Notes under the pieces: generated by a model
The model's input: the letters and a program-made list of their open reading frames with translations, nothing else
The model's database searches: none
What the model was told of the DNA's origin: nothing
Position numbers and translations under genes: made by a program
Assembly (NCBI GenBank): GCA_009377795.1
Contig: WHTJ01000003.1
Span: 1-64,000 of the forward strand
Source of the DNA: Propionibacteriales bacterium
GTDB taxonomy: Bacteria > Actinomycetota > Actinomycetes > Propionibacteriales > Nocardioidaceae
Length of the DNA: 64,000 nt
Direction of reading: 5' to 3'
Shown here: positions 48,760-64,000 of the stretch, in pieces
Position numbering within the stretch: position 1 is the first letter of the stretch
How the letters are laid out: the number at the start of each line of letters is the position of its first letter

Positions 48760-49425
48760 TCACGCCTCGCTCGTGAGGCGGTATCCCATGCCCCGGACGG
48801 TCTGGATGCGCCCGGAGCCGAGCTTCTTGCGCAGGTAGCGCACGTAGACGTCCACCACGTTCGACGAGGGGTCGAAGTCGTACCCCCAGACATGCGACAG
48901 GAGCTGTTCGCGGGAGAGCACCCGGTCGGGGTTGCGCAGGAACATCTCGGCGAGCACGAACTCGCGGGCGGACAGCTCGACCGTACGCCCCTCGACCGAG
49001 GCCCTCCGGGTGCGCAGGTCGAGGCTGAGCGACCCGTGGCGGAGCACGGTGACCTCCGGCCCGCGCTCGGTGCGGAGCCGCAGCCGGATCCGGGCCAGTA
49101 GCTCCTCGAACCGGAACGGCTTGGCGATGTAGTCGTCCGCACCGCCCTCGAGACCGGCCACCGTGTCGGTCACCGAGTCCCGGGCGGTGAGGATGATCAC
49201 CGGGATCGAGCCGCGCGCCTCCCGCAGCCGGCGGAGGACGGTGAACCCGTCGATGTCGGGTAGGCCGATGTCGAGCAGCAGCAGGTCGAACTCACCCGAG
49301 AGCGCATGCTGCAGCCCGCCGGCGCCGTCGCCCACGACGGTGGGCGCGAATCCGTTGGCGCGCAGCCCCTTCTCGATGAACGAGGCGATGCGCTCCTCGT
49401 CCTCGACGACCAGGACACGGTTCAT
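48760..49425 (-). CDS. OmpR-family response regulator
   Basis: Protein of 221 residues with a receiver domain (VLVVEDEERIASFIEKGL, phospho-acceptor in LLLLDIGLPDIDG, KPF switch) and a winged-helix DNA-binding domain (LSAREFVLAEMFLRNPDRVL; VDVYVRYLRKKLG). The ATG overlaps the kinase stop as ATGA. Likely targets are the three promoters with 11-bp-spaced TCATC repeats in this neighbourhood, including its own operon. Confidence 0.92.
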   Translation of the reverse strand: MNRVLVVEDEERIASFIEKGLRANGFAPTVVGDGAGGLQHALSGEFDLLLLDIGLPDIDGFTVLRRLREARGSIPVIILTARDSVTDTVAGLEGGADDYIAKPFRFEELLARIRLRLRTERGPEVTVLRHGSLSLDLRTRRASVEGRTVELSAREFVLAEMFLRNPDRVLSREQLLSHVWGYDFDPSSNVVDVYVRYLRKKLGSGRIQTVRGMGYRLTSEA

Positions 49426-50867
49426 GGGCCCTCCGGTAGGTGGTGCGTACGGAGCGGGACGACCAGGGTGAAGGTGGCGCCGGTGCCCGGGGTGGAGTCG
49501 AGGCGTACGTCGCCGCCGTGGCCCTCGGCGATCGCCCGGACGATCGACAGCCCGAGCCCGGAGCCCTCGGCCCCGCGGGCGTGGTGTCCGCGCTGGAAAC
49601 GCTCGAAGATGCGCTCGGCGTCGGCCGGCATCACTCCGGGACCGGTGTCGCGTACCCACCAGAGCACCTCGTGGTCGGTCGACGCGGAGCCGATCGTGAT
49701 CGGGTCACCCGGCTCGGTGTGGGCAATGGCGTGCTTCGCCAGCTGCAGGACGGCCTGGGTGATGCGTTGCTGGTCGACGGTGACGATGCCGGGTGCGCCG
49801 GTGTCGAGCCGCCAGTCCCGCTGACCCAGGGTCTGCACCTTGTCGAAGATGTCGATGGTGAGCGGGACGACGTCCACCGCATTCGGACGGAGGAAGTCCG
49901 GCTGGCCGGCCTTGGCGAGCACGATCAGGTCGTCCACCAGGCGGCCGATCCGATCCACCTCGTCGATCACCAGCGACCGGGTCGACCGGGTGTCGTCCGG
50001 GTCGTCCGGATCGAGCAGCTCCAGATGTCCGCGCACGATGGTGACCGGCGTACGCAGCTCGTGTCCGGCGTCGTCGAGGAACCGCCGCTGCGTGGCGAAC
50101 GCCTTCTCCAGCCGGTCGAGCATCTCGTTGAACGTGCGCGACAAGTCGGTGATGTCGTCATTGCCGGAGACCTCGATCCGGCGGCTGAGGTCGCTGTCGG
50201 TGATCTCGTGGGCGGTCGCTCGCAGCGTACGCAGCGGTTGCAGCAACCGCCCGGCGGCCATCCACGCGCCGACGGAGACGAGCACCAACGCGATGCCGGC
50301 CACGACGGCGTAGGTGCGTATCACCCCGTTGAACTCCGCGTACTCCTGATCGGGGAAGTAGGCCACCACGAACGCGCCCTGCGTCGTCGAGTCGCTCACC
50401 GCCTTGACCGCGAAGACCGCTGGACCGCCCCGGGTCTCCACCCGGCCGGAACCGCCCTCCGGCAGCTCGGCGTTGACCGCGTCGACGAAGTCCTGGTCCA
50501 CCGGGTCGAGGATGTCGGTGGCGGCGGCGTTGACCTTTCCCTCGGGTTCGCCGTCGAGGAAGTACGCCAGCAGCTCGTGCTCGCCGGGGAAGCTCTGCGA
50601 GAGCGCCGCCCGGAGCATCGCCCTGGCACTGGGATAGTTCCGGGGATTCAGTTGTTCGAACTCCCGGATCTCCTGTTCGATGGCCTCGTTCACCCGGTCG
50701 TCGATCCGGTCGGACTCCACGACGTACGCCGCCAGGCCGGCCCCGATCAGGGCCAGCGCGGTCAGCAGCACCACCCAGGCGGCGATCCGGGTACGGACCG
50801 CCCGGAGCGGGGCCGTGACCCGTCGCCACCCGGACGGCTCAGTCGTCCCTGTCGTCGCGGTCATCAC
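49422..50867 (-). CDS. Sensor histidine kinase with altered N box
   Basis: Protein of 481 residues: two membrane helices (about 26-47 and 190-210) flanking an extracellular sensor domain, HAMP, the H box FLDDAGHELRTPVTIVRGH, and an ATPase domain with DTGPGV and GSGLGLSIVRAIAEGHGG. The N box reads LQLAKHAIAHT where most homologues have Asn at the His position, so a Mg-coordinating residue may be missing. Partner of the overlapping response regulator. Confidence 0.88.
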   Translation of the reverse strand: MMTATTGTTEPSGWRRVTAPLRAVRTRIAAWVVLLTALALIGAGLAAYVVESDRIDDRVNEAIEQEIREFEQLNPRNYPSARAMLRAALSQSFPGEHELLAYFLDGEPEGKVNAAATDILDPVDQDFVDAVNAELPEGGSGRVETRGGPAVFAVKAVSDSTTQGAFVVAYFPDQEYAEFNGVIRTYAVVAGIALVLVSVGAWMAAGRLLQPLRTLRATAHEITDSDLSRRIEVSGNDDITDLSRTFNEMLDRLEKAFATQRRFLDDAGHELRTPVTIVRGHLELLDPDDPDDTRSTRSLVIDEVDRIGRLVDDLIVLAKAGQPDFLRPNAVDVVPLTIDIFDKVQTLGQRDWRLDTGAPGIVTVDQQRITQAVLQLAKHAIAHTEPGDPITIGSASTDHEVLWWVRDTGPGVMPADAERIFERFQRGHHARGAEGSGLGLSIVRAIAEGHGGDVRLDSTPGTGATFTLVVPLRTHHLPEGP

Positions 50868-51230: not shown

Positions 51231-51352
51231 TTCGCCGCGGACCGTACCGCCGGAGCCGGTCGCACGCGGGTGAGGGGGATCATGGTCGCGTGTACCCGGC
51301 CTGGGTACAGTCACGGCACCGAGAACCGTGCGACCTGAAAGGTGACCCGCTG

Positions 51353-52321
51353 ATGCCGGCCGACTCCACCTCGCTTCGTCCCCGCCGCTCCTGTCTCGCC
51401 GTACCCGGCTCCAACCCGCGGTTCCTGGAGAAGGCGAAGGGGCTGGACGCCGACCAGGTGTTCCTCGACATCGAGGACGCCGTCGCGCCGCTGGCCAAAC
51501 CCGATGCGAGGAAGAACATCGTGGCGGCGCTCAACGAGGGCGGCTGGGGAGACAAGATCCGGGTCGTCCGGGTGAACGACTGGACGACGGAGTGGACGTA
51601 CCGCGACGTGATCGAGGTGGTCGAGGGCGCCGGCGCCAACCTGGACTGCGTCATGCTGCCGAAGGTGCAGACCGCCGAGCAGGTGGTCGCGCTGGACACC
51701 CTGCTCACCCAGATCGAGAAGACCATGGGCCTCGACGTCGGCCGGATCGGCATCGAGGCCCAGATCGAGAACGCCCAGGGGCTGATCAACGTCGACGCGA
51801 TCGCGACCGCGTCCCCGCGGGTCGAGACCATCATCTTCGGCCCGGCCGACTTCATGGCCTCGATCAACATGAAGTCGCTGGTCGTGGGCGAGCAGCCGCC
51901 GGGGTACGACGTCGGCGATGCCTATCACTACATCCTGATGCGGATCCTGATGGCCGCACGCGCGCACGACAAGCAGGCGATCGACGGGCCGTACCTGCAG
52001 ATTCGGGACACGGACGGCTTCCGCCGGGTCGCCGGCCGGTCCGCCGCACTGGGATTCGACGGGAAGTGGGTCCTGCACCCCGACCAGGTGGCGGTGGCGA
52101 ACGAGGTGTACTCGCCCCGCCAGGAGGACTACGACCACGCGGAGAACATCCTCGACGCGTACGACTGGTTCACCAGCGAGCAGGGCGGCAAGAAGGGCTC
52201 GGCGATGCTCGGCGACGAGATGATCGACGAGGCGTCCCGCAAGATGGCGCTGGTGGTCGCCGCCAAGGGCCGGGCGGCCGGGATGACCCGCACCGAGCGC
52301 TGGCAACCCCCCGCGGAGTAG
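51353..52321 (+). CDS. HpcH/HpaI-type CoA ester lyase (malyl-CoA lyase/citrate lyase beta-like)
   Basis: TIM-barrel enzyme of 322 residues that cleaves beta-hydroxyacyl-CoA thioesters such as malyl-CoA. RSCLAVPGSNPRFLEKAKGL, VFLDIEDAVAP, the metal-binding IEAQIENAQGL and IIFGPADFMAS are visible. A family-typical tail GMTRTERWQPP ends the protein, and a second copy of this tail occurs at 60371. A sulfotransferase-like gene follows after 3 bp. The acyl-CoA dehydrogenase at 61315 was probably its original neighbour. Confidence 0.88.
   Translation: MPADSTSLRPRRSCLAVPGSNPRFLEKAKGLDADQVFLDIEDAVAPLAKPDARKNIVAALNEGGWGDKIRVVRVNDWTTEWTYRDVIEVVEGAGANLDCVMLPKVQTAEQVVALDTLLTQIEKTMGLDVGRIGIEAQIENAQGLINVDAIATASPRVETIIFGPADFMASINMKSLVVGEQPPGYDVGDAYHYILMRILMAARAHDKQAIDGPYLQIRDTDGFRRVAGRSAALGFDGKWVLHPDQVAVANEVYSPRQEDYDHAENILDAYDWFTSEQGGKKGSAMLGDEMIDEASRKMALVVAAKGRAAGMTRTERWQPPAE
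52281..52310. repeat. Lyase 3'-end repeat, left copy
   Basis: A 30-bp segment of the CoA ester lyase 3' end starting GGATGACCCGCACCGAGCGC is repeated in the same orientation at 60371-60400 with three mismatches. The copies bracket the phosphonate cluster except its nucleotidyltransferase gene. Confidence 0.75.
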
Positions 52322-52324
52322 AGC

Positions 52325-53398
52325 ATGTCTGATCCCAACCCAACCATTTTCGTTCATATCGGTCTCGCGAAGACCGGCACGACATACCTGCAGGGTCTGG
52401 TGTGGCGCAACAAGCAGGCCCTGGCCGACGCGGGGGTGCTGTTTCCGGGCCGTCCCGGTGACCACTTCCTCGCCTCGAACGATCTTCTGGGACAGCCGTT
52501 CGCGGGAAACCCCAAAAGCCTCCGGCCGGGTGCCTGGGAGAAGGTGGCGGCTCCGGCGCGCACGTCACCGGATCGGGCGCTGATCACGCAGGAGATCCTG
52601 GGTCGGGCAACACCAGACGACGCAAGACGCGCTATCGCGTCGCTGGCCCCCGGATCTGTGCACGTGATCGTGACCGTGCGCGACCTGTCGCGACAGATAC
52701 CCGCGGTCTGGCAAGAACGGGTCAAGAACGGCTCTCGCCAGACCTATACGTCGTTCCTGGAGGAGCTCTCACCGGCGGCAGAGAGCGAAAGCCGGTACTG
52801 GCGTCGTCAAGACGCGTCAGTGGTGCTGTCCCGATGGGGTGCCGTGCCACCCGAACACGTGCACATCGTCACGGTGCCGCCCAGTGGTGCCCGACCCCGG
52901 ATGCTCTGGGAGCGTTTTGCCTCGGTGCTCGGTGTCGACCCGCAAGTCGCGACCAAGCATCCTCCTCGCAGCAACACGGGGCTCGGCGTCGTCGAGGCCG
53001 AACTGTTGCGGGTTCTCAACGCCACGCTGCGTCCTCGGGCTGGTTCGTTCGCGGTTTACGCGAGGGCGGTCAAGCATCATTTCGCGACAGAGATCCTCCC
53101 CGGCACTGCGTCTGCGGACCGGATCGTCGTCCCGCCCGAACATCGCGACTGGGTGTCCGAGCGGGGGCGCGAGATCATCGAGCGGCTCAAGGGCAGGGGG
53201 TACGACGTGGTCGGTGACCTGGCTGACCTGGAGCCGACCTTCGCCGGCCAGGAGTTCGTCTCTCCGGCCGACGTGCCGAAGGAGCGGCTGTTGGAGGCCG
53301 CCGCCGAGTGCGTAACCGCGCAGCTTCTGGAGAACGATCAGCTCCGCAGGAAGGCGGGGAAACGCCCGGCGCAGCGACAGTCTCGGCCTGTCGAGTAG
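52325..53398 (+). CDS. Sulfotransferase-like P-loop protein 1
   Basis: Protein of 357 residues. The N-terminal VHIGLAKTGTTYLQG matches the 5'-phosphosulfate-binding loop of PAPS-dependent sulfotransferases, and TVRDLSRQIPAVWQERVKNG the region containing the second phosphate-binding site. Clear paralogue of the 55416 gene (shared P-loop, VHIVTVP, LWERFA, RGYDVVGDL). Likely modifies a surface glycan, but PAPS use is not proven. It begins 3 bp after the lyase stop, so it is expressed with that gene even if recently inserted. Confidence 0.75.
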   Translation: MSDPNPTIFVHIGLAKTGTTYLQGLVWRNKQALADAGVLFPGRPGDHFLASNDLLGQPFAGNPKSLRPGAWEKVAAPARTSPDRALITQEILGRATPDDARRAIASLAPGSVHVIVTVRDLSRQIPAVWQERVKNGSRQTYTSFLEELSPAAESESRYWRRQDASVVLSRWGAVPPEHVHIVTVPPSGARPRMLWERFASVLGVDPQVATKHPPRSNTGLGVVEAELLRVLNATLRPRAGSFAVYARAVKHHFATEILPGTASADRIVVPPEHRDWVSERGREIIERLKGRGYDVVGDLADLEPTFAGQEFVSPADVPKERLLEAAAECVTAQLLENDQLRRKAGKRPAQRQSRPVE

Positions 53399-53510
53399 GC
53401 GCGACGCCTGCCTGGAGGGCACGCGCAAGGCTGCGCTCGAAACGGCGTTGACTCCGCAGGTAAGGTCCCCGGTCGCGGGTGACGATTCGGCGACTCCGTG
53501 TGGCCATTGT

Positions 53511-53562
53511 TTGCACGTTGTTCATGAGTGCTTATAGTGCTGGTCAACTGGCGAGGTTGACC
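53511..53562 (+). promoter_or_regulatory. Sigma-70-type promoter with downstream operator-like dyad
   Basis: TTGCAC (53511-53516), 16 bp, then TATAGT (53533-53538) form a strong housekeeping-type promoter. At the expected start point, GGTCAAC-N7-GTTGACC (53542-53562) is a perfect inverted repeat, possibly extended outward with a bulge. It would drive the LicD fusion, coiled-coil and second sulfotransferase-like genes, and the dyad may bind a repressor. Confidence 0.6.
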
Positions 53563-53588
53563 GCCAGCACCGGCGAAGGTGGGGAGAG

Positions 53589-55133
53589 ATGGGCCACGAG
53601 CTGGCCGACGAGCACGGCGTGTACTTTCGTGCCGACCCTGATGCGGTGGTCGAGGTGCTCTTCGACGGCCGGCGGATCTGGTCGATTGCGGCCAAGGAGA
53701 CAACGGTGGACGACCACGGGGTCCGCCACGTCGAATGGCCACGCGCGTTGTGCAGGTTTCTCGACGGTCGCGTGTGCGTAGCCCTGCGGGAGCGCGACCA
53801 CGAAGCACCGTTCGCCGAGGCCGAGGTCTCCTTCGGGTCCGGCACCGGGCGGGTAGCCGTGGTCGATTTCGAAGGCCGCCCGCTGGCGATGACGAAGTGG
53901 GGTCGGCTCAACAACACCTTCGACTCTGCCGACCGGGAGGTCATCGAACGCTACCTCGACCAGGCCGAGGAAGTGCTCAAGATCCTGCAACATGAGTGCG
54001 GTGTGGCGGCGTTTATCAGCTACGGCACGCTCCTGGGCGCCGTTCGCGAAGGCAAGCTGATCGGGCACGACGTCGACGTGGACCTGGGCTACTTGAGCGA
54101 CTACGAGCACCCCGTAGACGTGCAGCGCGAAAGCTTCCGGATCGAGCGAGTCCTGAGGGGCAAGGGCTTTCGCGTCCTCCGGCAGAACGGTGGCTTTCTC
54201 GCATTGTTCATCCCGGAGGGCGATGGCCTCAGACGCAACCTCGACGTATTCACCTGCTTCGTGCAGGGTAAGCACATCTACCAGGTGGGCCAGATCCGTG
54301 CCGCGGGTGACCGCTCGACGATCCTCCCCCTGCGGCGTATCCCGTTCGAAGGTCGCATGCTTCCCGCACCGGCCAGACCCGAAGTGCTGTTCGAGGCTGC
54401 GTACGGCGACGGATGGCGGGTGCCCGACCCGTCGTTCAAGTTCGACGTCCCGGTGTCGACGAGCGTCCGGATGGAAGGTTGGTTGGGTGGCCTGCGCGCC
54501 GATCGCGAGCAGTGGGCCTGGTTCTACAACCACCGAGCCGAAGAGGTTGGGCTCGAGCCGACACCCTTCGCCGCCTGGGTCGCCGAGCGCGAGGATCCGT
54601 GTCACCTCGTCGACCTCGGTTGTGGGAATGGTCGAGACTCGATCTTCTTTGCTACGAAGGGATTCGATGTCCTCGGTTTGGACTTCGTTCGGGTCGCATG
54701 GAGGCCGGCCGAGGACTATCTGAAGGAGCACGCGCTTCCTGTCACGTTCGAGCTACGCAACCTGAATTCCCTCCGTGAGACGCTTGCCACCGGAGCGCGG
54801 ATCGCCCGATGGCCGAGTCCGCGGATCGTTTATGGTCGGTTTCTCGTGCATTCCTTGCGTGAGCGGGGTCTGGACAACATGTGGCGCCTGCTTGGGATGG
54901 CGCTGCGCTCGGGTGGACGCAGCTATCTGGAGTTCCGCACCGCACGGGATCGTGACCGGCCCAAACACTTCGGCCGGCGCTTCCGTCGGTTCTTGACCAT
55001 CGATGAGGTCGTCGGGAAGGCGCAGCGGCACGGGCTCCGCGTCGTGGAGCAGAAAGCGGGCACCGGCTTGGCGCCCTTCGTCGAAGAGGATCCCTTTGTG
55101 TGCAGACTCGTGTTGGAGTCAGGCGATGAATGA
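53589..55133 (+). CDS. LicD-like phosphotransferase fused to SAM methyltransferase
   Basis: Protein of 514 residues in three parts: an N-terminal beta-rich region of about 120 residues; a LicD domain with SYGTLLGAVREGKLIGHDVD (about 143-162), the nucleotidyltransferase-fold motif of enzymes that move phosphocholine or phosphonate groups from CDP or CMP carriers to glycans; and a class I methyltransferase with VDLGCGNGRDS (about 340-350) and VLGLDF. With a phosphonate pathway and a nucleotidyltransferase nearby, the simplest role is transfer of a phosphonate to a glycan and methylation of the product. GGGGAG precedes the ATG. Confidence 0.82.
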   Translation: MGHELADEHGVYFRADPDAVVEVLFDGRRIWSIAAKETTVDDHGVRHVEWPRALCRFLDGRVCVALRERDHEAPFAEAEVSFGSGTGRVAVVDFEGRPLAMTKWGRLNNTFDSADREVIERYLDQAEEVLKILQHECGVAAFISYGTLLGAVREGKLIGHDVDVDLGYLSDYEHPVDVQRESFRIERVLRGKGFRVLRQNGGFLALFIPEGDGLRRNLDVFTCFVQGKHIYQVGQIRAAGDRSTILPLRRIPFEGRMLPAPARPEVLFEAAYGDGWRVPDPSFKFDVPVSTSVRMEGWLGGLRADREQWAWFYNHRAEEVGLEPTPFAAWVAEREDPCHLVDLGCGNGRDSIFFATKGFDVLGLDFVRVAWRPAEDYLKEHALPVTFELRNLNSLRETLATGARIARWPSPRIVYGRFLVHSLRERGLDNMWRLLGMALRSGGRSYLEFRTARDRDRPKHFGRRFRRFLTIDEVVGKAQRHGLRVVEQKAGTGLAPFVEEDPFVCRLVLESGDE

Positions 55134-55410
55134 GTCCAAGAACTGGCCAGGCAAGAAGCTGATTGCGAGCAGGTCTTCGCGGTTGGCCGAAGCAGTGTGG
55201 CTATTGCGCCATGTTGACGCTGTGTTCGACAGGATTGACAAGTTGGACGTACGAGTTCGCCAGCTGGAAGGCGCGTTACATGAGAACCTCATGCTGCATC
55301 GGCGCGTGGCCGAGCTGACCGATATCGTCCAGGAGCTACTGTTGCCGGTAGCACAGCGCGATGAGAAGCGTGTGCGCGAGTTGCTGGACCAGTACTCCGA
55401 GAAGCTTTGA
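55126..55410 (+). CDS. Small coiled-coil protein
   Basis: Protein of 94 residues, mostly helical with heptad character (VDAVFDRIDKLDVRVRQLEG; HRRVAELTDIVQELL). Its ATG overlaps the LicD-fusion stop by 8 nt and its stop touches the next gene, so it is made with them. No family recognised; it may be a scaffold or partner for the neighbouring transferases, both sulfotransferase-like proteins also having charged helical tails. Confidence 0.65.
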   Translation: MNESKNWPGKKLIASRSSRLAEAVWLLRHVDAVFDRIDKLDVRVRQLEGALHENLMLHRRVAELTDIVQELLLPVAQRDEKRVRELLDQYSEKL

Positions 55411-55415
55411 GGCAG

Positions 55416-56582
55416 ATGGCGCGGCAGGTCTACTTCCATATCGGAGCGCCGAAGACCGGCACGACGTACCTCCAGAACGCGCTCTGGGGCAACCGCGCGG
55501 TGCTGCGCACGCAAGGCGTCCTCATCCCGGGGCGGAAACACTTCGACACCTTCGACGCCACGGTCGTCGTCCGCGAGAAGCCCCGACGGGGCCGCCGCGC
55601 CGACGAGATCGGCAATGCGTGGGACCGGATCGTCGAGGAGGTGCACAACTGGAGCGGCACTGCGGTCATCAGTCATGAGTTCTTCGCCGAGGCCACGGCG
55701 GAGCAGGCGAAGAAGGCGATCGCAGCACTGGCGCCGGCGGAAGTGCACATCGTCTTCACGGCCCGCGACTACGTGCGCCAGGTTCCGGCGGTGTGGCAGG
55801 AAGCCCTCAAGATGCACTCCAAGCTGACCTTGAGCGAGTTTGTCGAGGACGCCCTGGCGGATCGGCTCACCGGGCCGTGGAGCTGGCGCACGTTCGACAT
55901 CCGCGCGGTGCTCGAGCGTTGGGCGGCGGAGCTTCCCCCTGGGCAGGTGCATGTGGTGACCGTTCCTCGTCCGGGGACTGACCCCGCCGTGCTGTGGGAC
56001 CGCTTCGCCCGGCTGTGCGGGATCGATCCGAGCTCGTGCGACCCCAGCACCGACATGGCCAACGAGTCTCTCGGGCTGGTCGAGGCCCGGTTGCTGCAAG
56101 AGGTGCATCCCAGGCTGACTGTGTTATCGGGGCTTCCAGAGCGCCATCGCTGGACCCGCGGCTTCTTCGCCCATCAGGTGTTGGTGCCGCGTGAGGGAGA
56201 ACGCTTTGGCTTGCGCCGGTCGGAGGCGGAGGCGCTCCGTGCGCGAGCGCTCGATGCCGTGGAACAGATCCGCCTTCGTGGCTATGACGTCGTCGGCGAT
56301 CTGGACGAGCTCGTCGCACCTGACCCGCTGCCTGAGCTGCCACATCCCGACGACGTGAGCGACGCCGAGCTCCTCGACGCCGCCGAAGACGTCATCGCCG
56401 ACCTGATCATGCATGTCCGGAAGCACATCATGCAGTCGGAACACCGCGAGCGGCGGCTCCGGAAGGTTCAACGGCAGCTGAAGGAACTTCGAGAACGCCA
56501 GAGTCGAACAAGGCGTCTGCTGAGCCGGATCAGGAGGATGGCCGCTCAGGTCCGCAGGCGGATCAAGCAGCGGCGCTCCTGA
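55416..56582 (+). CDS. Sulfotransferase-like P-loop protein 2
   Basis: Protein of 388 residues, paralogue of the 52325 product. FHIGAPKTGTTYLQNALWGN is the phosphosulfate-binding loop and ARDYVRQVPAVWQEALKMHS the second site. It has an extra C-terminal basic coiled-coil of about 60 residues, which may hold it to the membrane or a partner. TTG 55407 overlapping the previous stop is another possible start. Convergent with the dehydrogenase gene, 16 bp away. Confidence 0.75.
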   Translation: MARQVYFHIGAPKTGTTYLQNALWGNRAVLRTQGVLIPGRKHFDTFDATVVVREKPRRGRRADEIGNAWDRIVEEVHNWSGTAVISHEFFAEATAEQAKKAIAALAPAEVHIVFTARDYVRQVPAVWQEALKMHSKLTLSEFVEDALADRLTGPWSWRTFDIRAVLERWAAELPPGQVHVVTVPRPGTDPAVLWDRFARLCGIDPSSCDPSTDMANESLGLVEARLLQEVHPRLTVLSGLPERHRWTRGFFAHQVLVPREGERFGLRRSEAEALRARALDAVEQIRLRGYDVVGDLDELVAPDPLPELPHPDDVSDAELLDAAEDVIADLIMHVRKHIMQSEHRERRLRKVQRQLKELRERQSRTRRLLSRIRRMAAQVRRRIKQRRS

Positions 56583-56598
56583 CGTGGCGACGGTTGAA

Positions 56599-57741
56599 TC
56601 AACTCGTGCTCAGCAGCTGAACAAGTCCCTCCTTCGTGAAGCGCATCGGGTTGTTGCCGAGCCGTTCGACGTTGACGCGTGAAGCAAGTGCCTCGATCTG
56701 CGGCTCCGTACTGATGCCGACCCGGGTCAGCTGCATCGGCAAACCGAGGCGGCGGCCCAAATCGACAAAGTTCTGGCTGGCCTGAGCACCGTCGGGCGCG
56801 TCGAGCGCCTGGAACACACTTCGCAATGCAGCTGCATGGTGAGCCGGGTCAACGGAGGATTGGAGGTCCGTCGGCTTTGCGGTCGCATGGTGCTCGATGA
56901 ACGCCGGGAGCGTCAGCGCAACCGCATGGCCGTGGCTCACGCCGTACTCCTTCGTGATTGCGTACGACAGAGCGTGCGCCACCGTGGTCTTCGAGATGTC
57001 GATGGCCCGGCCGGCAAGATGGCTGCCGATCGCCATGGCGCGCGCGGAGTCGTTGGTTGGGGCGTTCACGAAGGCCTCGATGGCAGGCATGAGCATCCGC
57101 AACGCGGCTCTCGCATGCCGCCGGCTCTCGTCGGTGGCGCCGACCGCCCAGAGGCTTTCGATCGCCTGCGACACCGCGTCGATCCCCGATGTCGCGCGCT
57201 GGTACGGCGTACCGCTCAACGTCAACGCAGGGTCGAGAATCGCCACATCGGGACGCAGCACCGGGCCGCCGATGGAGAACTTGTCGTCGCCGATGTAGAC
57301 CACGGCGAAATGCGTGGCCTCGCTGCCGGTGCCGCTCGTCGTGGGGGCGAGGACGAGGTGCGGCTCGCGCGAGGTGATCCGGTCTCCCGCGCGAATCGAG
57401 TCATGCAGCTTGCCGGCGTCTGTGATGTTCTGGTACGCGCACAGCAGCTTCGCCATGTCCATGGCGCTGCCGCCTCCGACGCCCACGATGACGTCAGGCC
57501 CGAACTCCTCGACGATCGTCAGTCCGCGAAGGAGATCCACGGCGTCGGTGTTCGGCGCGAAGTCGCTCCATCGTCGTACCTTCGCGACCCGCTCGAGATC
57601 GGGCAACATCCGGCTGGCGCCGGACGCTTCGAACGAACTTCGCCCACACACCAGCAGGACGCTCCGGCCGCGCAGATCGGCCACCACGGCCGGCACCTGC
57701 AGAATCGCGCCGTCGCCATAGCGGACATCGCGAGGCGTCAT
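56599..57741 (-). CDS. Iron-containing alcohol dehydrogenase, probable phosphonoacetaldehyde reductase
   Basis: Protein of 380 residues of the group III (iron) alcohol dehydrogenase family. GVGGGSAMDMAKLL binds NAD(P), and metal ligands lie in DAVSQAIES, HALSYAITKEYGVSHGHAVA. In phosphonate pathways such an enzyme (PhpC type) reduces phosphonoacetaldehyde to 2-hydroxyethylphosphonate. ATG overlaps the decarboxylase stop (ATGA), making that substrate the obvious one. No aminotransferase for the alternative 2-aminoethylphosphonate route is nearby. Confidence 0.85.
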   Translation of the reverse strand: MTPRDVRYGDGAILQVPAVVADLRGRSVLLVCGRSSFEASGASRMLPDLERVAKVRRWSDFAPNTDAVDLLRGLTIVEEFGPDVIVGVGGGSAMDMAKLLCAYQNITDAGKLHDSIRAGDRITSREPHLVLAPTTSGTGSEATHFAVVYIGDDKFSIGGPVLRPDVAILDPALTLSGTPYQRATSGIDAVSQAIESLWAVGATDESRRHARAALRMLMPAIEAFVNAPTNDSARAMAIGSHLAGRAIDISKTTVAHALSYAITKEYGVSHGHAVALTLPAFIEHHATAKPTDLQSSVDPAHHAAALRSVFQALDAPDGAQASQNFVDLGRRLGLPMQLTRVGISTEPQIEALASRVNVERLGNNPMRFTKEGLVQLLSTS

Positions 57742-58883
57742 GTGGAGCCTGCACGGAGGGCCGACATGAAGGTCTGCTTGCTTTCTCGGGGAGTGCGGGT
57801 GGGGCGCCCGATGCCGGGTCGGTTGCCCGGGCGCACCCGTAGCTCGAGGAGCGCCGGCCCGGCGTTCGCCCGCATCTGCGCCACGGCGTCGGAGATCGTG
57901 CTGATGTCCGCTGTAGCGCGCGCGTAACGGTAGCCAAGAGCCCGAGCCGTGGCCGGAACGTCGACGGCGCTGATGGAGGTCGGCTGGGCACCGACGCTGT
58001 CGTGCACGCCGTTGTTGAACACGACATGGAAGTACGTGGACGGTGCATGATCCGCGATGACCGCGAGGCTGCCGAGGTGCATCAGCGCGGCACCGTCGCC
58101 GTCGAGGCACCAGACTTCGCGGTCGGGCTCGTTCATCGCCAGTCCGAGTGCGATCGAGCAGGCGTGACCCATCCCGCCCACCGTGAGGAAGTCCCGGCTG
58201 CCGTCCGTACCGGAACGCTGGCGGTGCTCGAACAGCTCGCGGCTGAGCATGCCCGTCGTCGACACGATCGTCACGCCGTCTCCCACGGCCTCGGCGAGCG
58301 CGACCAGCGCCTCCTCACGGCTCGGCAACTCCTCCGTGGGTTCCTTGTGACCCAGATCCATGTTGCTCGCGTCGGCGAACGTGCCCTTCTCGACCATGAG
58401 GATGTATGGGCTGGACCGCTCCACCGCCGTCGTCACGGCAGTCTTCAGACACTGGGCGGCGTCCGCGCTCTCCTTGGGCAGTACGGCCCACGGCAGATCG
58501 AGCGCGTCCAGCAGGTCGTCCATGACCCGCCCCTGCTTGACGTGCTGCGGTTCGTCCGGCACGCCCACCTGCCCGCGCCACCCGACGAGCACGAGCATCG
58601 GGATGCCGTACACATCCGGGTCGGCCAGCGACATCAGTGGGTTGACCGCGTTTCCGAAGCCGGAGTTCTGCAGGTAGACCAGTCCCGGGGTAGCCGTGCG
58701 CAGGTAGTGCCCGATAGCGATTCCGACGGCGGCACCCTCGTTGGCCGCAATGATGTGCTGCCGGCGTGGCAGGGTGTGCATAATCTCGGCGTTGAGCTGC
58801 TTGAGCAGGCTGTCGGGTACGCCGGTGTAGAGCGTGATGCCTTGGTCACCGCAAAGCCGCACGAACCAAGCAGGATCGAGCAT
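57738..58883 (-). CDS. Phosphonopyruvate decarboxylase
   Basis: Thiamine-diphosphate enzyme of 381 residues that converts phosphonopyruvate to phosphonoacetaldehyde and thereby pulls the unfavourable PEP mutase reaction forward. GVPDSLLKQLN, AANEGAAVGIAIGHYL, YLQNSGFGNAVNPLMSL are typical of Ppd; the ThDP motif begins CLDGDGAALMHLGSL and ends at FNNGVHDS. Its start overlaps the pepM stop as ATGA. Confidence 0.93.
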   Translation of the reverse strand: MLDPAWFVRLCGDQGITLYTGVPDSLLKQLNAEIMHTLPRRQHIIAANEGAAVGIAIGHYLRTATPGLVYLQNSGFGNAVNPLMSLADPDVYGIPMLVLVGWRGQVGVPDEPQHVKQGRVMDDLLDALDLPWAVLPKESADAAQCLKTAVTTAVERSSPYILMVEKGTFADASNMDLGHKEPTEELPSREEALVALAEAVGDGVTIVSTTGMLSRELFEHRQRSGTDGSRDFLTVGGMGHACSIALGLAMNEPDREVWCLDGDGAALMHLGSLAVIADHAPSTYFHVVFNNGVHDSVGAQPTSISAVDVPATARALGYRYARATADISTISDAVAQMRANAGPALLELRVRPGNRPGIGRPTRTPRESKQTFMSALRAGST

Positions 58884-60190
58884 CAGGCATTCTCCGGGAT
58901 GATTGCCAGCGTCTCCTTGATCGGGGCCAGCAATGGCTCGGCCTCGTGCGCGCGCCCGTGCTGCAAGATCGACTCCGCGACCTTGGCCATCTGCGGGTAT
59001 GCCGCACGGAGCAGGTGGTTGGCGTAGATCACCATGTTGACGCCGTGGTCGGCGAGTTCGGCCTCCGTCACCTGGTGATAGCTACTCGGTACTGCCACCA
59101 GCGGGACGCGTTTGGGGAGCTTGTCGAACTGCCGGCAGAATTCAAAGATCTCGTTCGGCTCCGTGCGCCGGCTGTGGATCATGATCCCGTCGGCTCCGGC
59201 CTCGATATAGGCCTCCGAGCGTTCGACCGCGTCGTCCATACCTTGGTCCAGGATGAGACTCTCGATCCGCGCAATGATCATGAAGTCGTTGGTGATCTGG
59301 GCGCGCTTGCCGATCGCGATCCGCTCGGAGAAGTCCTCGATGCGCGACTGGGTCTGGGCAACTTCGGTGCCGAACAGCGAGTTGCGCTTGAGGCCCTCCT
59401 TGTCTTCGATGATGACGCCCGAAACACCCAGTCGTTCCAGTGAACGCACGTTGAAGCTGAAATGCTCAGGCTGCCCTCCGGTGTCGGCGTCGAAGACCAA
59501 CGGCTTTGTCGTGACCTCGAAGAGCTCGTTGACGGTCAGCAGTCGCGACGAGATGTCGACCGCCTCGATGTCCGGCTTGCCGCGCGCAGTGGAGTCGGTC
59601 AACGACGACGACCACATACCATCGAACTCCTTGGTGTGTCCGTCGACCTCGACTGAGGAGTTTTCGACGATGAGTCCGGTCAGACCGCTGTGTGCCTCCA
59701 AGATCCGCACGAGCGGCTTGTTGGCAAGCAACCGGCGCAACCGTGACAGGCGCACGTTGGGGGTAGTACCGATCTGCTTGACCGACTCGTGCAGCTGGGT
59801 CGAGGAGATGCCTTCGGTATACGGCACCTCGACAAGCTTCCCACCCCACTGCTCCAGTGCGTCGATCACCCGCTGCCGTGTCTGTTCCTGCACGCCAGTG
59901 CGCCAGTCGTCACCATGCACGACGAAATCGGGCTTGATCCGCTCCAGGTTCGGGACATAGTCCAGCGTCTCCTGGGCGACGATCTGTCGGACGGTCTGCA
60001 GGCTCTCAACCACAGCCTTGCGCTGCTCGTACGTCATGTGCGGCAGCCTCTTGTAACTGGCAATCGCACCATCGGTCAACAATCCCACGGTCACGTCACC
60101 GAGCTCGTCCGCCCTGCGCAGCAGGTTGATGTGCCCTGGATGGATGAGATCAGCGCTCATCCCCACATAGACAACCGGTCTGTCCGTCAC
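58883..60190 (-). CDS. pepM: Phosphoenolpyruvate mutase with N-terminal cytidylyltransferase-like domain
   Basis: First enzyme of phosphonate synthesis; rearranges PEP to phosphonopyruvate, forming the C-P bond. The 435 residues comprise an N-terminal nucleotidyltransferase-fold domain ([20 protein letters not shown], with the HxGH-type motif) and the PEP mutase barrel: [27 protein letters not shown] and the diagnostic [13 protein letters not shown], which separates true mutases from related lyases. GTG 60190 with GGGAG upstream is chosen. First gene of the pepM-ppd-reductase operon, all overlapping. Confidence 0.95.
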
Positions 60191-60276
60191 GCCTGACTCC
60201 CTTGATGATGGACGCCCACCCATCACCGACTCAGCGCAAGCCGCATGCGCCCGGTCGAACGCACGGGTAGCGCACG

Positions 60277-60331
60277 GTTCAGTGGACGTATGCTATGAGT
60301 TCACCCAATGTACATGCTGGGTTCACCGAAG
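60277..60331. promoter_or_regulatory. Tandem 11-nt direct-repeat array resembling a PHO box
   Basis: Five consecutive 11-nt units, each beginning GT: GTTCAGTGGAC, GTATGCTATGA, GTTCACCCAAT, GTACATGCTGG and GTTCACCGAAG. Units 1, 3 and 5 carry GTTCA. PhoP of streptomycetes binds 11-nt direct repeats with a GTTCACC consensus. The array lies in the intergenic region between pepM and the nucleotidyltransferase gene and could control either. Confidence 0.6.
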
Positions 60332-60370
60332 CAATATGGCCGCGCAGGCTTGGCCGCGAACAGCTAGCGG

Positions 60371-60400
60371 GGATGTCCCGCACCGAGCGCTGGCAGCCGC
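60371..60400. repeat. Lyase 3'-end repeat, right copy
   Basis: Matches 52281-52310 at 27 of 30 positions and would encode GMSRTERWQPP in one frame. It has no other lyase sequence before it. It lies about 90 bp before the nucleotidyltransferase start. Confidence 0.75.
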
Positions 60401-60487
60401 CGACCCGAGGACGCGGCCGCCGTTCCGAGGGACACTGGGGACGGCACTACTCGAGATTGGAGCTGGTAAGCAGGAAGCGAGCGAGGA

Positions 60488-61204
60488 ATGGGTATCCAGA
60501 TTGCGATTTTGGCGGCGGGGTTGGGGACCCGCCTCGGAAAGTCGTTCCCGAAGCCGCTCACGGAGCTGAGCAACGGCACGACGATCATGCAGCAGCAGCT
60601 GGACAACCTGCGCGGCGTGTTCGGCGATCAGGCCGACATCACCGTGGTGGTCGGGTTCAAGCTGGGCCTGGTTCTGGAAGCCGCGCCGAGCGTGCGGTAC
60701 GCCTACAACGAGCTGTTCGACCAGACCAACACGTCCAAGAGCCTGCTCAAGGTGCTGCGCCTGACCGGGCCGGGTGGACTGCTCTGGATGAACGGCGACA
60801 TCGTGTTCGACGCGGAGCTCCTGCGGAAGGCGCGCCGGACCATCGAACAGGACCGCAGCTTCGTCTGCGTGAACACCGCGCCGGTCGCCGACGAGGAGGT
60901 GAAGTACACCCTGGACGACGCCGGCAACGTCGCGGCGCTCTCCAAGGAGGTCGTGGGCGGCCTGGGCGAGGCGGTGGGCATCAACTATGTCTCGGCTGCG
61001 GACAAGGCGGCCCTGATCACCCGGCTGGACGAGTGCGATCCGCAGGACTTCTTCGAGCGGGGTATCGAGCTGGCGATCCTGAAGGACGGCCAGCGATGGG
61101 CGGCGGTCGACATCTCCGAGTACCGCTGTGTCGAGGTGGACTTCGACGACGACCTGGACCTTGTGAACTCCTTGCTGCGCGACGAGGAGTCCCGCGGGCT
61201 GTGA
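60488..61204 (+). CDS. Sugar/phosphonate nucleotidyltransferase (LicC/PntC-like)
   Basis: Protein of 238 residues with the nucleotidyltransferase signature AILAAGLGTRLGKSFPKPLT, a metal-binding MNGDIVFD and FERGIELAIL near the end. It resembles LicC/PntC-type enzymes that make CDP-choline or CMP-phosphonates. In this setting it probably activates the phosphonate with CTP for transfer by the LicD fusion. It could instead make an NDP-sugar; the substrate needs testing. AGCGAGG precedes the ATG. Confidence 0.82.
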   Translation: MGIQIAILAAGLGTRLGKSFPKPLTELSNGTTIMQQQLDNLRGVFGDQADITVVVGFKLGLVLEAAPSVRYAYNELFDQTNTSKSLLKVLRLTGPGGLLWMNGDIVFDAELLRKARRTIEQDRSFVCVNTAPVADEEVKYTLDDAGNVAALSKEVVGGLGEAVGINYVSAADKAALITRLDECDPQDFFERGIELAILKDGQRWAAVDISEYRCVEVDFDDDLDLVNSLLRDEESRGL

Positions 61205-61314
61205 TGCGGCTCATGGCCCGGCCGTCGGCGGCTGGTCATACTGCCGGTGCGATCCTGAACTGAGCGGCGGCGTTCGCGCCCCTCGCCGTACCACCGACAA
61301 CGGAAGGACCAGCG

Positions 61315-62508
61315 ATGGGTCACCTCTGCGAGACCGAGGGCCTCACCGACATCCAGCAGGAGATCCTCAAGACCGTCCGTGCTTTCGTGGACAACGAGAT
61401 CCTTCCGGTGGCCACCGAGCTGGAGCACAAGGACGAGTACCCGACCCAGATCGTGGAGGGGATGAAGGAGCTCGGGTTGTTCGGCCTGGTGATCCCCGAG
61501 GAGTACGGCGGCCTGGGGGAGAGCCTGCTGACCTACGCGCTCGTGGTGGAGGAGATCGCGCGTGGCTGGATGAGCGTGAGCGGCATCATCAACACGCACT
61601 TCATCGTGGCCTGGATGCTGATGAAGCACGGCACCGACGAGCAGAAACAGCACCACCTGCCGCGGATGGCGGCCGGTGACCTGCGGGGCGCGTTCTCCAT
61701 GTCCGAGCCCGGCACGGGGTCCGATGTGGCCGCGATCAAGACCAAGGCGACCGCGAGGGACGACGGGACGTACGTGATCAACGGCCAGAAGATGTGGCTG
61801 ACCAACGGTGGCACGTCGAGTTTGGTAGCCGTGCTGGTGAAAACCGACGTCGGCGCGGACAAGCCGCACCAGAACATGACGACCTTCCTGGTGGAGAAGG
61901 AGCCGGGGTTCGGTGAGGTGCTTCCCGGTCTCACCGTGCCCGGCAAGATCGACAAGATGGGCTACAAGGGCGTCGACACGACCGAGCTGATCTTCGACAA
62001 CTTCGAGATCAGGCCCGACACGATTCTCGGCGGCGAGCCTGGTCGCGGCTTCTACCAGATGATGGACGGCGTCGAGGTCGGCCGGGTCAATGTGGCCGCC
62101 CGGGGGTGCGGTGTCGCCTGGCGCGCGTTCGAGCTCGGCATCGCGTACTCCCAGCAGCGCGAGACCTTCGGCCGGAAGATCGCGGAGCACCAGGCGGTGC
62201 TGTTCCGGCTGGCGGAGATGGGCACGAAGGTGGAGGCCGCGCACCAGATGATGGTGAGGGCCGCGCGTACCAAGGACTCCGGCCAGCGCAACGACCTGGA
62301 GGCCGGGATGGCGAAGTACCTCGCCTCGGAGTACTGCGCCGAGGTGGTGGAGGACTCCTTCCGGATCCACGGTGGTTACGGGTTCTCGAAGGAGTACGAG
62401 ATCGAGCGGCTCTACCGCGAGGCGCCCATGCTGCTGATCGGCGAGGGTACGGCGGACATCCAGCGGATGATCATTGGCCGCCGGCTGCTCGAGGAATACA
62501 AGCTGTAG
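61315..62508 (+). CDS. Acyl-CoA dehydrogenase
   Basis: FAD-dependent acyl-CoA dehydrogenase of 397 residues. FSMSEPGTGSDVAAIKTKA, WLTNGGTSSL and RQRETFGRKI-type QQRETFGRKIAEHQAVLF, IHGGYGFSKEYEIERLYR are family signatures; the catalytic base Glu is in LYREAPMLLIGEGT. Such genes often lie beside CoA ester lyases; the lyase here is 9 kb away with the phosphonate cluster between. Confidence 0.92.
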   Translation: MGHLCETEGLTDIQQEILKTVRAFVDNEILPVATELEHKDEYPTQIVEGMKELGLFGLVIPEEYGGLGESLLTYALVVEEIARGWMSVSGIINTHFIVAWMLMKHGTDEQKQHHLPRMAAGDLRGAFSMSEPGTGSDVAAIKTKATARDDGTYVINGQKMWLTNGGTSSLVAVLVKTDVGADKPHQNMTTFLVEKEPGFGEVLPGLTVPGKIDKMGYKGVDTTELIFDNFEIRPDTILGGEPGRGFYQMMDGVEVGRVNVAARGCGVAWRAFELGIAYSQQRETFGRKIAEHQAVLFRLAEMGTKVEAAHQMMVRAARTKDSGQRNDLEAGMAKYLASEYCAEVVEDSFRIHGGYGFSKEYEIERLYREAPMLLIGEGTADIQRMIIGRRLLEEYKL

Positions 62509-62529
62509 GCGCCGCAGGCGCGTGCTCGG

Positions 62530-63069
62530 CTATTCCCAGGACCAGCTGTCGAGGACGTTGCCGATGTGGCTCTCCGCTGACCCGGCCTCGTCGACGTGCG
62601 ACGTCACCGTGATGACGAACAGCTCCTTGCTATGGAACGCGGCGTACTGCCGGAACGCGACGTCGACGCCACCCTGCTCGCCCGTGAAGGACTGCCCGAT
62701 GGCGGACTCGCCGTCGATCTTGAACCGGTCGAAGGCCTCCGGCGGCTTGTCGGCCATGCCGGCGACCTGAGCGCTCATCGACCGCTGCAGTCGCTTCATC
62801 CCGATCTTCTGCTGGGAACCGTGTACGACGTTGAAGTTCGTGGAGAACTCGTCCACCTTGTCGTCCGAGCGGAAGGCGACCTCGACCTGCGGCGACGACT
62901 TCTTGACCTCCTCGGTGGCGTCCTCGAACCCGGACGGAGCGGTGAAGCTGTACCCGTCGCCGGAATAGGTCTGGCCCTCCTCTCCGTCGCCGGAGGAGCC
63001 GCAGGCGACGAGGGAGAGGGCCGGCAGGATCGCGGACGATGCGGCGATGGCAAGTCGGCGTGATCTCAT
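62530..63069 (-). CDS. Putative lipoprotein
   Basis: Protein of 179 residues. Basic start, hydrophobic segment and lipobox LVAC at about residue 23, followed by a Gly/Ser linker and an extracellular domain (YSFTAPSGFEDATEEVKKSS) of the PsbP/Mog1-like or DUF1795-type appearance. Function unknown. Converges with the acyl-CoA dehydrogenase at a 21-bp gap. ATG 63069 is chosen; the frame opens 3 codons earlier. Confidence 0.75.
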   Translation of the reverse strand: MRSRRLAIAASSAILPALSLVACGSSGDGEEGQTYSGDGYSFTAPSGFEDATEEVKKSSPQVEVAFRSDDKVDEFSTNFNVVHGSQQKIGMKRLQRSMSAQVAGMADKPPEAFDRFKIDGESAIGQSFTGEQGGVDVAFRQYAAFHSKELFVITVTSHVDEAGSAESHIGNVLDSWSWE

Positions 63070-63182
63070 GGCCGGCACATTATCGGACGCCGGGTTCCAC
63101 GTACGACGGCCGTCGTGCTGCGTCGACTGGGCAGCGTGTCGGTACCGATCGATCCTCCACGAGCTGTGATAAATTGACGAAC

Positions 63183-63701
63183 ATGATGAAGAAGTTGCTG
63201 CTGGTTGCCGTCGCCACGGTCACGGCGTTCACGCTGACTGTCCCACCGGCGTCGGCCGACGCCGGTGGAGTGAAGGACGGCAACGATGTGGCAGGCAGGC
63301 TTGATCTGAAGCGGGTATCCCAGCACCACGACGGCAATTGGGTGATCCACCGCTGGGCCACCTATCGTGGGTGGTCGAAGAGCATCCTCCGGAGGAACAC
63401 CGGAAACCGGTTCGTGATGTGGGGGGATTCAAATATTTACAGCCCCGACACGGGCGTGATCTTCCGCAAAGACGGCAGATGGCGCTGCAGAAACTCTAAC
63501 GGTGCGTTTTGGTGTGTTGACCAGAACATCTTCGTGCGGCATCCCAGCCGCCGGGTTCTGACGATGAAGTGGAATCCGCCGAGCGGCATGAACTGGATCG
63601 TCTGGCGAGGCGGAACAAGGTTCTTCAATGACGGCGCCTGCTCCAGCGGCTGCCGGGACTGGGCTCCGAGACGTGGCGCCGTGCTCTTCCACGAGTTCTA
63701 G
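63183..63701 (+). CDS. Secreted protein of unknown function with paired cysteines
   Basis: Protein of 172 residues: signal peptide (KKLLLVAVATVTAFTLTVPP, cleavage after ASA) and a mature domain rich in Trp, Arg and Asn. Cys occur as pairs in CRNSNGAFWC and CSSGC, consistent with two disulfides. Base composition is visibly less GC-rich than its neighbours, which suggests recent acquisition. No family recognised. Confidence 0.7.
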   Translation: MMKKLLLVAVATVTAFTLTVPPASADAGGVKDGNDVAGRLDLKRVSQHHDGNWVIHRWATYRGWSKSILRRNTGNRFVMWGDSNIYSPDTGVIFRKDGRWRCRNSNGAFWCVDQNIFVRHPSRRVLTMKWNPPSGMNWIVWRGGTRFFNDGACSSGCRDWAPRRGAVLFHEF

Positions 63702-63748
63702 CGGGTTGGTTGGCGGTCCCTTTTCTCGACCCGAAGGTTTGTCGAGGT

Positions 63749-64000
63749 CTACGTCTCGACTACTCGCGCTTTACGGGCGGCTTGGTTTTCCCAGTTCGTG
63801 AGCAGGATGGAGACGGCGTGGTCGAGGTCGAGCGGGTCGCCGTACCAGGAGGATTCGATAGTCGACGGTTCGACATCGGCGTGTACGGCGGTCAGGTCGG
63901 CGACGTCGCCCCGGATGCGCGGCGCGGTGGGGCGTTCGGCGCCGCACTGGCCGTGGAACCGGAACCGCTGTTTGCCTAGCGCCACGATGTGAAAGCCGCC
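63749..64000 (-). CDS. C-terminal part of an unidentified protein (partial)
   Basis: The frame is open from the right edge to a stop at 63749-63751. The sequence (IVALGKQRFRFHGQCGAERP; IRGDVADLTAVHADVEPSTI; DLDHAVSILLTNWENQAARK) looks coding and the real start is probably outside the window, although a GTG at 63985 exists. I do not recognise it. Confidence 0.5.
   Translation of the reverse strand, partial: GGFHIVALGKQRFRFHGQCGAERPTAPRIRGDVADLTAVHADVEPSTIESSWYGDPLDLDHAVSILLTNWENQAARKARVVET

Follow-up and report, generated by a model that had tools for sequence, protein, structure and literature searches.

A PHO-box-like array with a 22-bp register between pepM and a divergent nucleotidyltransferase gene, a possible non-canonical PhoP operator

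Phosphonate genes around the repeat stretch

The window (the whole stretch of DNA analysed, 64,000 nt) carries a group of phosphonate genes around a divergent gap of 297 bp, which separates pepM on the minus strand from a MobA/GlmU-like nucleotidyltransferase gene on the plus strand (Table 1). The identity of pepM was established by a profile search, in which it matched the TIGR02320 equivalog at 410 bits, above the cut-off. As judged from the sequence, its likely start is the GTG at 60190, with GGGAG ahead of it. The phosphonopyruvate decarboxylase gene comes next in the pepM operon, and the iron-containing alcohol dehydrogenase that follows is probably a phosphonoacetaldehyde reductase, the match to the nearest NCBIfam model (TIGR03405) being below the cut-off. 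After the dehydrogenase, profile matches indicated a LicD/methyltransferase protein and a weak sulfotransferase-like protein. Taken together, these genes would fit a 2-hydroxyethylphosphonate-type product joined to a larger molecule. Among the closest named PepM loci is that of Glycomyces sp. NRRL B-16210, whose phosphonoglycans are the topic of a paper cited in PMC8931226.

The G+C content is 69.8% over positions 1-51000 but drops to about 65% across the phosphonate genes and on to the end of the window (51290-64000). The pepM gene was found in 3 of the 342 genomes of the family, in 2 of 395 in a sample of the class and in 1 of 251 in another family. Given the fall in G+C and the rarity of pepM in the family, the region was probably acquired horizontally. 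Profile searches recognised no regulator gene between 51290 and 61204, where two genes have no Pfam match or a weak one. Two other features of the window were recorded. One is an open frame of 357 aa with coding-like third-position G+C and no match in Pfam or NCBIfam. The other is a pair of genes, for an OmpR-type response regulator and a HAMP-containing histidine kinase, with about 240 nt shared between their open frames; the start of the regulator probably lies later than its open frame implies.

Table 1. Features of the window, with matrix scores for the five 11-nt units
Feature	Position	Strand	Details
OmpR-type response regulator and histidine kinase	48760-50867	-	HAMP-containing kinase
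Open frame	52325-53398	+	357 aa
Iron-containing alcohol dehydrogenase	56599-57735 (start approximate)	-	PF00465/PF25137
Phosphonopyruvate decarboxylase	57738-58883	-	TIGR03297, 431.7 bits, above cut-off
pepM	58883-60190	-	phosphoenolpyruvate mutase with N-terminal cytidylyltransferase-like domain; PF13714 (2e-57), PF01467
Unit 1, GTTCAGTGGAC	60277-60287	+	DRu-like; 7.5 bits (fair)
Unit 2, GTATGCTATGA	60288-60298	+	not a DRu, only the leading GT in common; -8.9 bits
Unit 3, GTTCACCCAAT	60299-60309	+	DRu-like; 10.9 bits (good)
Unit 4, GTACATGCTGG	60310-60320	+	weak; 1.9 bits
Unit 5, GTTCACCGAAG	60321-60331	+	DRu-like; 10.2 bits (good)
Candidate pepM core promoter	60307-60334	-	-35 TTGCTT (60334-60329), 16-nt spacer, -10 TACATT (60312-60307)
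Nucleotidyltransferase (MobA/GlmU-like)	60488-61204 (ATG 60488)	+	PF12804 (3.1e-14)

The units compared with PHO boxes of the host family

A PHO matrix was built from 60 DRus in the phoU promoters of 30 host-family genomes (L109 and L125-L153). The host is one of these genomes, so the score of its own phoU box is not independent. Two adjacent 11-nt units of the GTTCACC type, at a step of exactly 11 bp, were present in all 30 promoters, with positions 1-4 invariant in the first unit and GTT(C/A)A in every second unit. This set is, in effect, a ready-made PHO matrix specific to the host family. Single phoU units scored 8.4-14.7 bits and the two-unit phoU boxes 17.7-29.8 bits.

The host genome (182 contigs, 4.58 Mb) encodes PhoR-PhoP and PhoU and has boxes of this kind at phoU, pstS and ppk. 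Its one PhoU gene is divergent from the genes of a histidine kinase and an OmpR-type response regulator (phoR-phoP), and the best match of the latter is RegX3 of M. tuberculosis (2oqr, 364 bits), far over other solved relatives. The phoR-phoU gap contains the box GTTCACCCGCC GTTCATGGGGC. A pstS-like gene (TIGR02136, 251 bits, above the cut-off) has GTTCACCCGAC GTTCATCGGCT upstream, scoring 21.7 bits over the two units, and ppk has GGTCACCGGCT GTTCACCGTTG immediately ahead of its start, scoring 16.4 bits. The exact pattern GTTCAN6GTTCA occurs three times in the host genome, two of them being the pstS and phoU boxes. As base composition predicts about two per genome, the significance of these occurrences rests on their positions rather than on their count. 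A pattern search found no GTTCAN6GTTCA in the whole window.

The earlier note had described the gap between pepM and the nucleotidyltransferase gene as holding five gapless 11-nt units resembling a PHO box, and had proposed a scan with a position-weight matrix. The five units are there, contiguous and exact, at 60277-60331. Scored with the family-made matrix, they comprise three DRu-like units with a GTTCACC-type heptamer (units 1, 3 and 5), one weak unit (unit 4) and one that is not a DRu (unit 2), and units 3 and 5 fall within the range of real phoU units. Five equal tandem units are thus ruled out by units 2 (-8.9 bits) and 4 (1.9 bits). GTTCA begins at 60277, 60299 and 60321, which gives a period of 22 bp and not 11. 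At an 11-bp step no adjacent pair of conserved units was found, the best pairs reaching 12.3-12.9 bits with a partner of only 1.9. The best 22-mer at pepM scored 12.3 bits, against 16.4-29.8 bits in the reference boxes (the 30 phoU boxes, host included, and those of host pstS and ppk). What holds of the proposed PHO likeness is that three units match the family matrix far beyond chance; the tandem arrangement of five and a strong pair do not. A simple canonical PHO box was rejected on the absence of an adjacent strong pair, and no inverted-repeat operator was found in the pepM gap. The pepM site would escape a standard PHO-box scan.

The failed adjacency makes a canonical PHO box less likely and leaves room for PhoP binding, since alternating operators have precedent. 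Alternation of strong and weak units, as in the pepM array, is known in some Streptomyces PhoP operators, and the units of the S. filipinensis phoU-phoR operator, whose binding by PhoP was verified by gel shift, score 3.3, 10.6, -2.8 and 6.3 bits with a different matrix (PMC6283541). The pepM array resembles the Streptomyces boxes and operators at phoU-phoRP, pstS and ppk in unit length, GTTCACC heptamer and divergent intergenic position. It differs from them in that it has no adjacent strong pair, its strong units being 22 bp apart, and in that it lies at a phosphonate biosynthesis gene, overlapping the likely core promoter. The GTTCACC motif is also common to the boxes of the host-family phoU genes and of host pstS and ppk, whereas the exact 11-bp step between GTT(C/A)A-type units, seen in the 30 phoU boxes and the host pstS box, is not found at pepM.

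Score ranks were taken within 218 kb of host DNA, part of which was chosen for PHO-like pairs, while patterns were counted genome-wide. The sum over three units at 11-bp steps was 23.1 for 60299-60331, the highest value among some 435,000 positions, and the runner-up (13.1) was the host phoU box itself. At 22-bp steps, 60277-60331 reached 28.7, against 13.3 for the next position. None of 20,000 dinucleotide shuffles of the pepM gap attained 23.1 or 28.7. GTTCACC-N15-GTTCACC without mismatch occurs a single time in the 4.58 Mb, at pepM. As two-unit boxes, several other sites within the 218 kb scored above the pepM site; many of these were intragenic and some had been picked by similarity. Periodicity measured without reference to a motif was modest (p = 0.005 for period 22; p = 0.08 for the best over periods 8-30). 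With strong motif-based scores and modest motif-free periodicity, the signal is one of in-phase PHO-unit matches rather than a strong tandem repeat.

A serious rival, though in our judgement rather unlikely, is that the stretch arose by chance or as a coincidence of promoter sequence, a gap richer in AT happening to hold one or two matches to GTTCAC with no regulatory role. Such a coincidence would agree with the weak periodicity over all periods and with the nearest same-family pepM genes having no array; moreover, base composition predicts GTTCACC-N15-GTTCACC about 0.03 times per genome, and the stretch was picked out by a reader from among many. It sits poorly with the three GTTCA on one 22-bp register, for which the same arithmetic gives about 0.001 per genome, with the shuffles of the three-unit scores and with the location of the stretch between divergent genes.

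Candidate promoters and regulators

Every TANNNT of the pepM gap falls within the repeat stretch. There are only three, TATGCT (+, 60289-60294), TACATT (-, 60312-60307) and TAGCAT (-, 60295-60290), and the first and last, both -10-like, lie within unit 2. A scan for TANNNT and TTGACA places the candidate core promoter of pepM, whose position we infer, over units 3-5. A stricter sigma-70 consensus scan of the gap returned no standard promoter, and no terminator either. Read as GTTCACC, the array is directed toward the nucleotidyltransferase gene and away from pepM. Repression is favoured, since a protein bound to units 3-5 would sit over the core promoter.

To our best explanation, that 60277-60331 is a non-canonical operator of the host PhoP (RegX3 type) overlapping divergent promoters, we give slightly less than an even chance. 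Its three good 11-nt recognition units, each 22 bp from the next, would share a face of the double helix, and a weak unit separates the last two. In its phosphorylated form, PhoP would nucleate at units 3-5 and, once bound, would cover the core promoters of both pepM and the nucleotidyltransferase gene. Through such an operator pepM would probably be repressed when phosphate is scarce, a sign that we infer, and phosphorus would be spared from being locked into a phosphonate product. Phosphate supply may well control the pepM pathway. Teichoic acid genes, which are repressed by the Pho regulon, provide a precedent for phosphate control of phosphorus-rich surface polymers (PMC4415409). A search of open-access literature turned up no paper in which PhoP acts directly on a pepM cluster.

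The same site could also serve activation, with PhoP or a PolR-like regulator inducing the cluster upon phosphate starvation or another signal, a reading that we consider very improbable. The motif can be read by more than one regulator, as in Microlunatus phosphovorus (Propionibacteriales, possibly also the order of the host), where the DevR-like PolR recognises GTTCACnnnnnGTTCaC at ppk, pstS and pit (PMC6754071). The PolR site shares the heptamer with the pepM array and likewise serves phosphate genes, but differs in its 11-bp spacing and its DevR-like regulator. If TAGCAT (60295-60290) were the -10, units 3-5 would span the -35 zone, as activation would have it. However, the array runs opposite to pepM, and starved cells would be expected to save on a product that consumes phosphorus. 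The host phoU box ends 26 nt ahead of its -10 TAATCT, a distance that matches activation, as expected, whereas the pepM array overlaps the core promoter.

The main rival to a PhoP operator, in our view an unlikely one, is a 22-bp direct-repeat site of another winged-helix activator, of the OmpR or SARP type, that brings RNA polymerase either to pepM or to its divergent neighbour. The period at pepM is truly 22 bp, and the window contains the OmpR-type response regulator and kinase mentioned above; the host also has at least two BTAD-domain proteins, elsewhere in the genome. SARP sites, those of AfsR included, are heptamer-like direct repeats 11 or 22 bp apart, the latter being the spacing at pepM; their 3' repeat lies about 8 bp upstream of the -10, and the sequences bound by AfsR overlap those of PhoP at PHO boxes (PMC10936776). 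Neither strand of the pepM gap shows this spacing to a -10: the plus strand has no TANNNT 6-8 bp past unit 5, and the minus-strand TAGCAT is separated from GGTGAAC by only 3 nt. Furthermore, the pepM heptamer is the host PHO heptamer, unlike the typical SARP heptamer, which is of the TCGAGC type, and the pepM cluster contains no recognised SARP gene.

Upstream regions of pepM in relatives

In 19 other loci, the 260 nt that precede pepM were scored with the family matrix; a three-unit score of at least 12 is expected about 0.003 times per region (372 kb of background). Arrays at or above this score were found in L024 (Micromonosporaceae, PepM 84% identical), L027 (Glycomyces salinus) and L105 (a genome of the same order), and weaker PHO-like arrays in L035 and L036 (Glycomyces) and L038 (Actinophytocola), with shuffle p values of 0.007-0.02. 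The units are opposed to pepM in L027, L035, L036 and L105, as they are in the window, and in the first three of these the distance to the pepM start is 101-112 nt, compared with 108 nt in the window. No PHO-like array was detected within the 260 nt of L026, L028, L032 and L033, which are fosfomycin-type and other loci. The array is absent from the two same-family pepM loci (L104/L161 and L162), and L154 has no three-unit array. Alignment of the upstream stretches with those of the relatives showed no base-level conservation. The relatives' arrays are suggestive as support for an operator at pepM, with serious caveats: the units of L024 and L038 are GTTAACC, a near-palindrome; L027 has a single strong unit; and TGACC-type promoter -35 elements, present in some of these arrays, mimic GGTCA on the opposite strand.

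For the PhoP operator we counted the RegX3-like host PhoP, the PHO boxes at phoU, pstS and ppk, the family matrix fixed by 30 of 30 phoU promoters, the teichoic acid precedent, the top rank of the array, the shuffles and the unique GTTCACC-N15-GTTCACC, together with the relatives' arrays, the S. filipinensis alternation and the cluster's lack of a recognised regulator. Counted against it were the missing adjacent strong pair, the orientation opposed to pepM, the absence from same-family loci, the missing base-level alignment of the relatives' arrays, the promoter-like TGACC in some of them and the higher two-unit scores elsewhere.

A broader proposition, which we regard as doubtful, is that actinobacterial phosphonate (probably phosphonoglycan) biosynthesis is directly under the phosphate-starvation regulator through a stretched PHO operator in 22-bp register. 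It would be a carbon-phosphorus counterpart of teichoic acid control that has arisen repeatedly in horizontally moved clusters. Cells that make phosphonates must time their investment of phosphorus, and a direct PhoP link, if true, would explain the timing of phosphonate polymer synthesis. Phosphate supply would then be a simple on/off switch for silent phosphonate clusters, and the 22-bp spacing would broaden the definition used in PHO-box searches.

Three of the other upstream regions have features of their own. About 160-220 nt upstream of pepM, L105 has four consecutive DRu-like units, GGTCATCGAAA GGTCACCGAAA GGGCATCCGGC GTTCACCGCAT, opposed to pepM and about 31 nt ahead of a TATGCT. L162 has TCGGGTTCACCCTACCGGCCGTTCGCC upstream of pepM, just ahead of TAGACT, in which a distance of 16 bp puts two PHO-like heptamers out of the 11-bp phase. 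In L024, the stretch GTTCGTCTCGC GTTAACCCTAG ACTGGGTGACG GTTAACCAAGG lies about 35-70 nt upstream of pepM, where GTTAACC at a 22-bp repeat flanks a -10 TAGACT; this might be an MtrA-like or a PhoP-like site.
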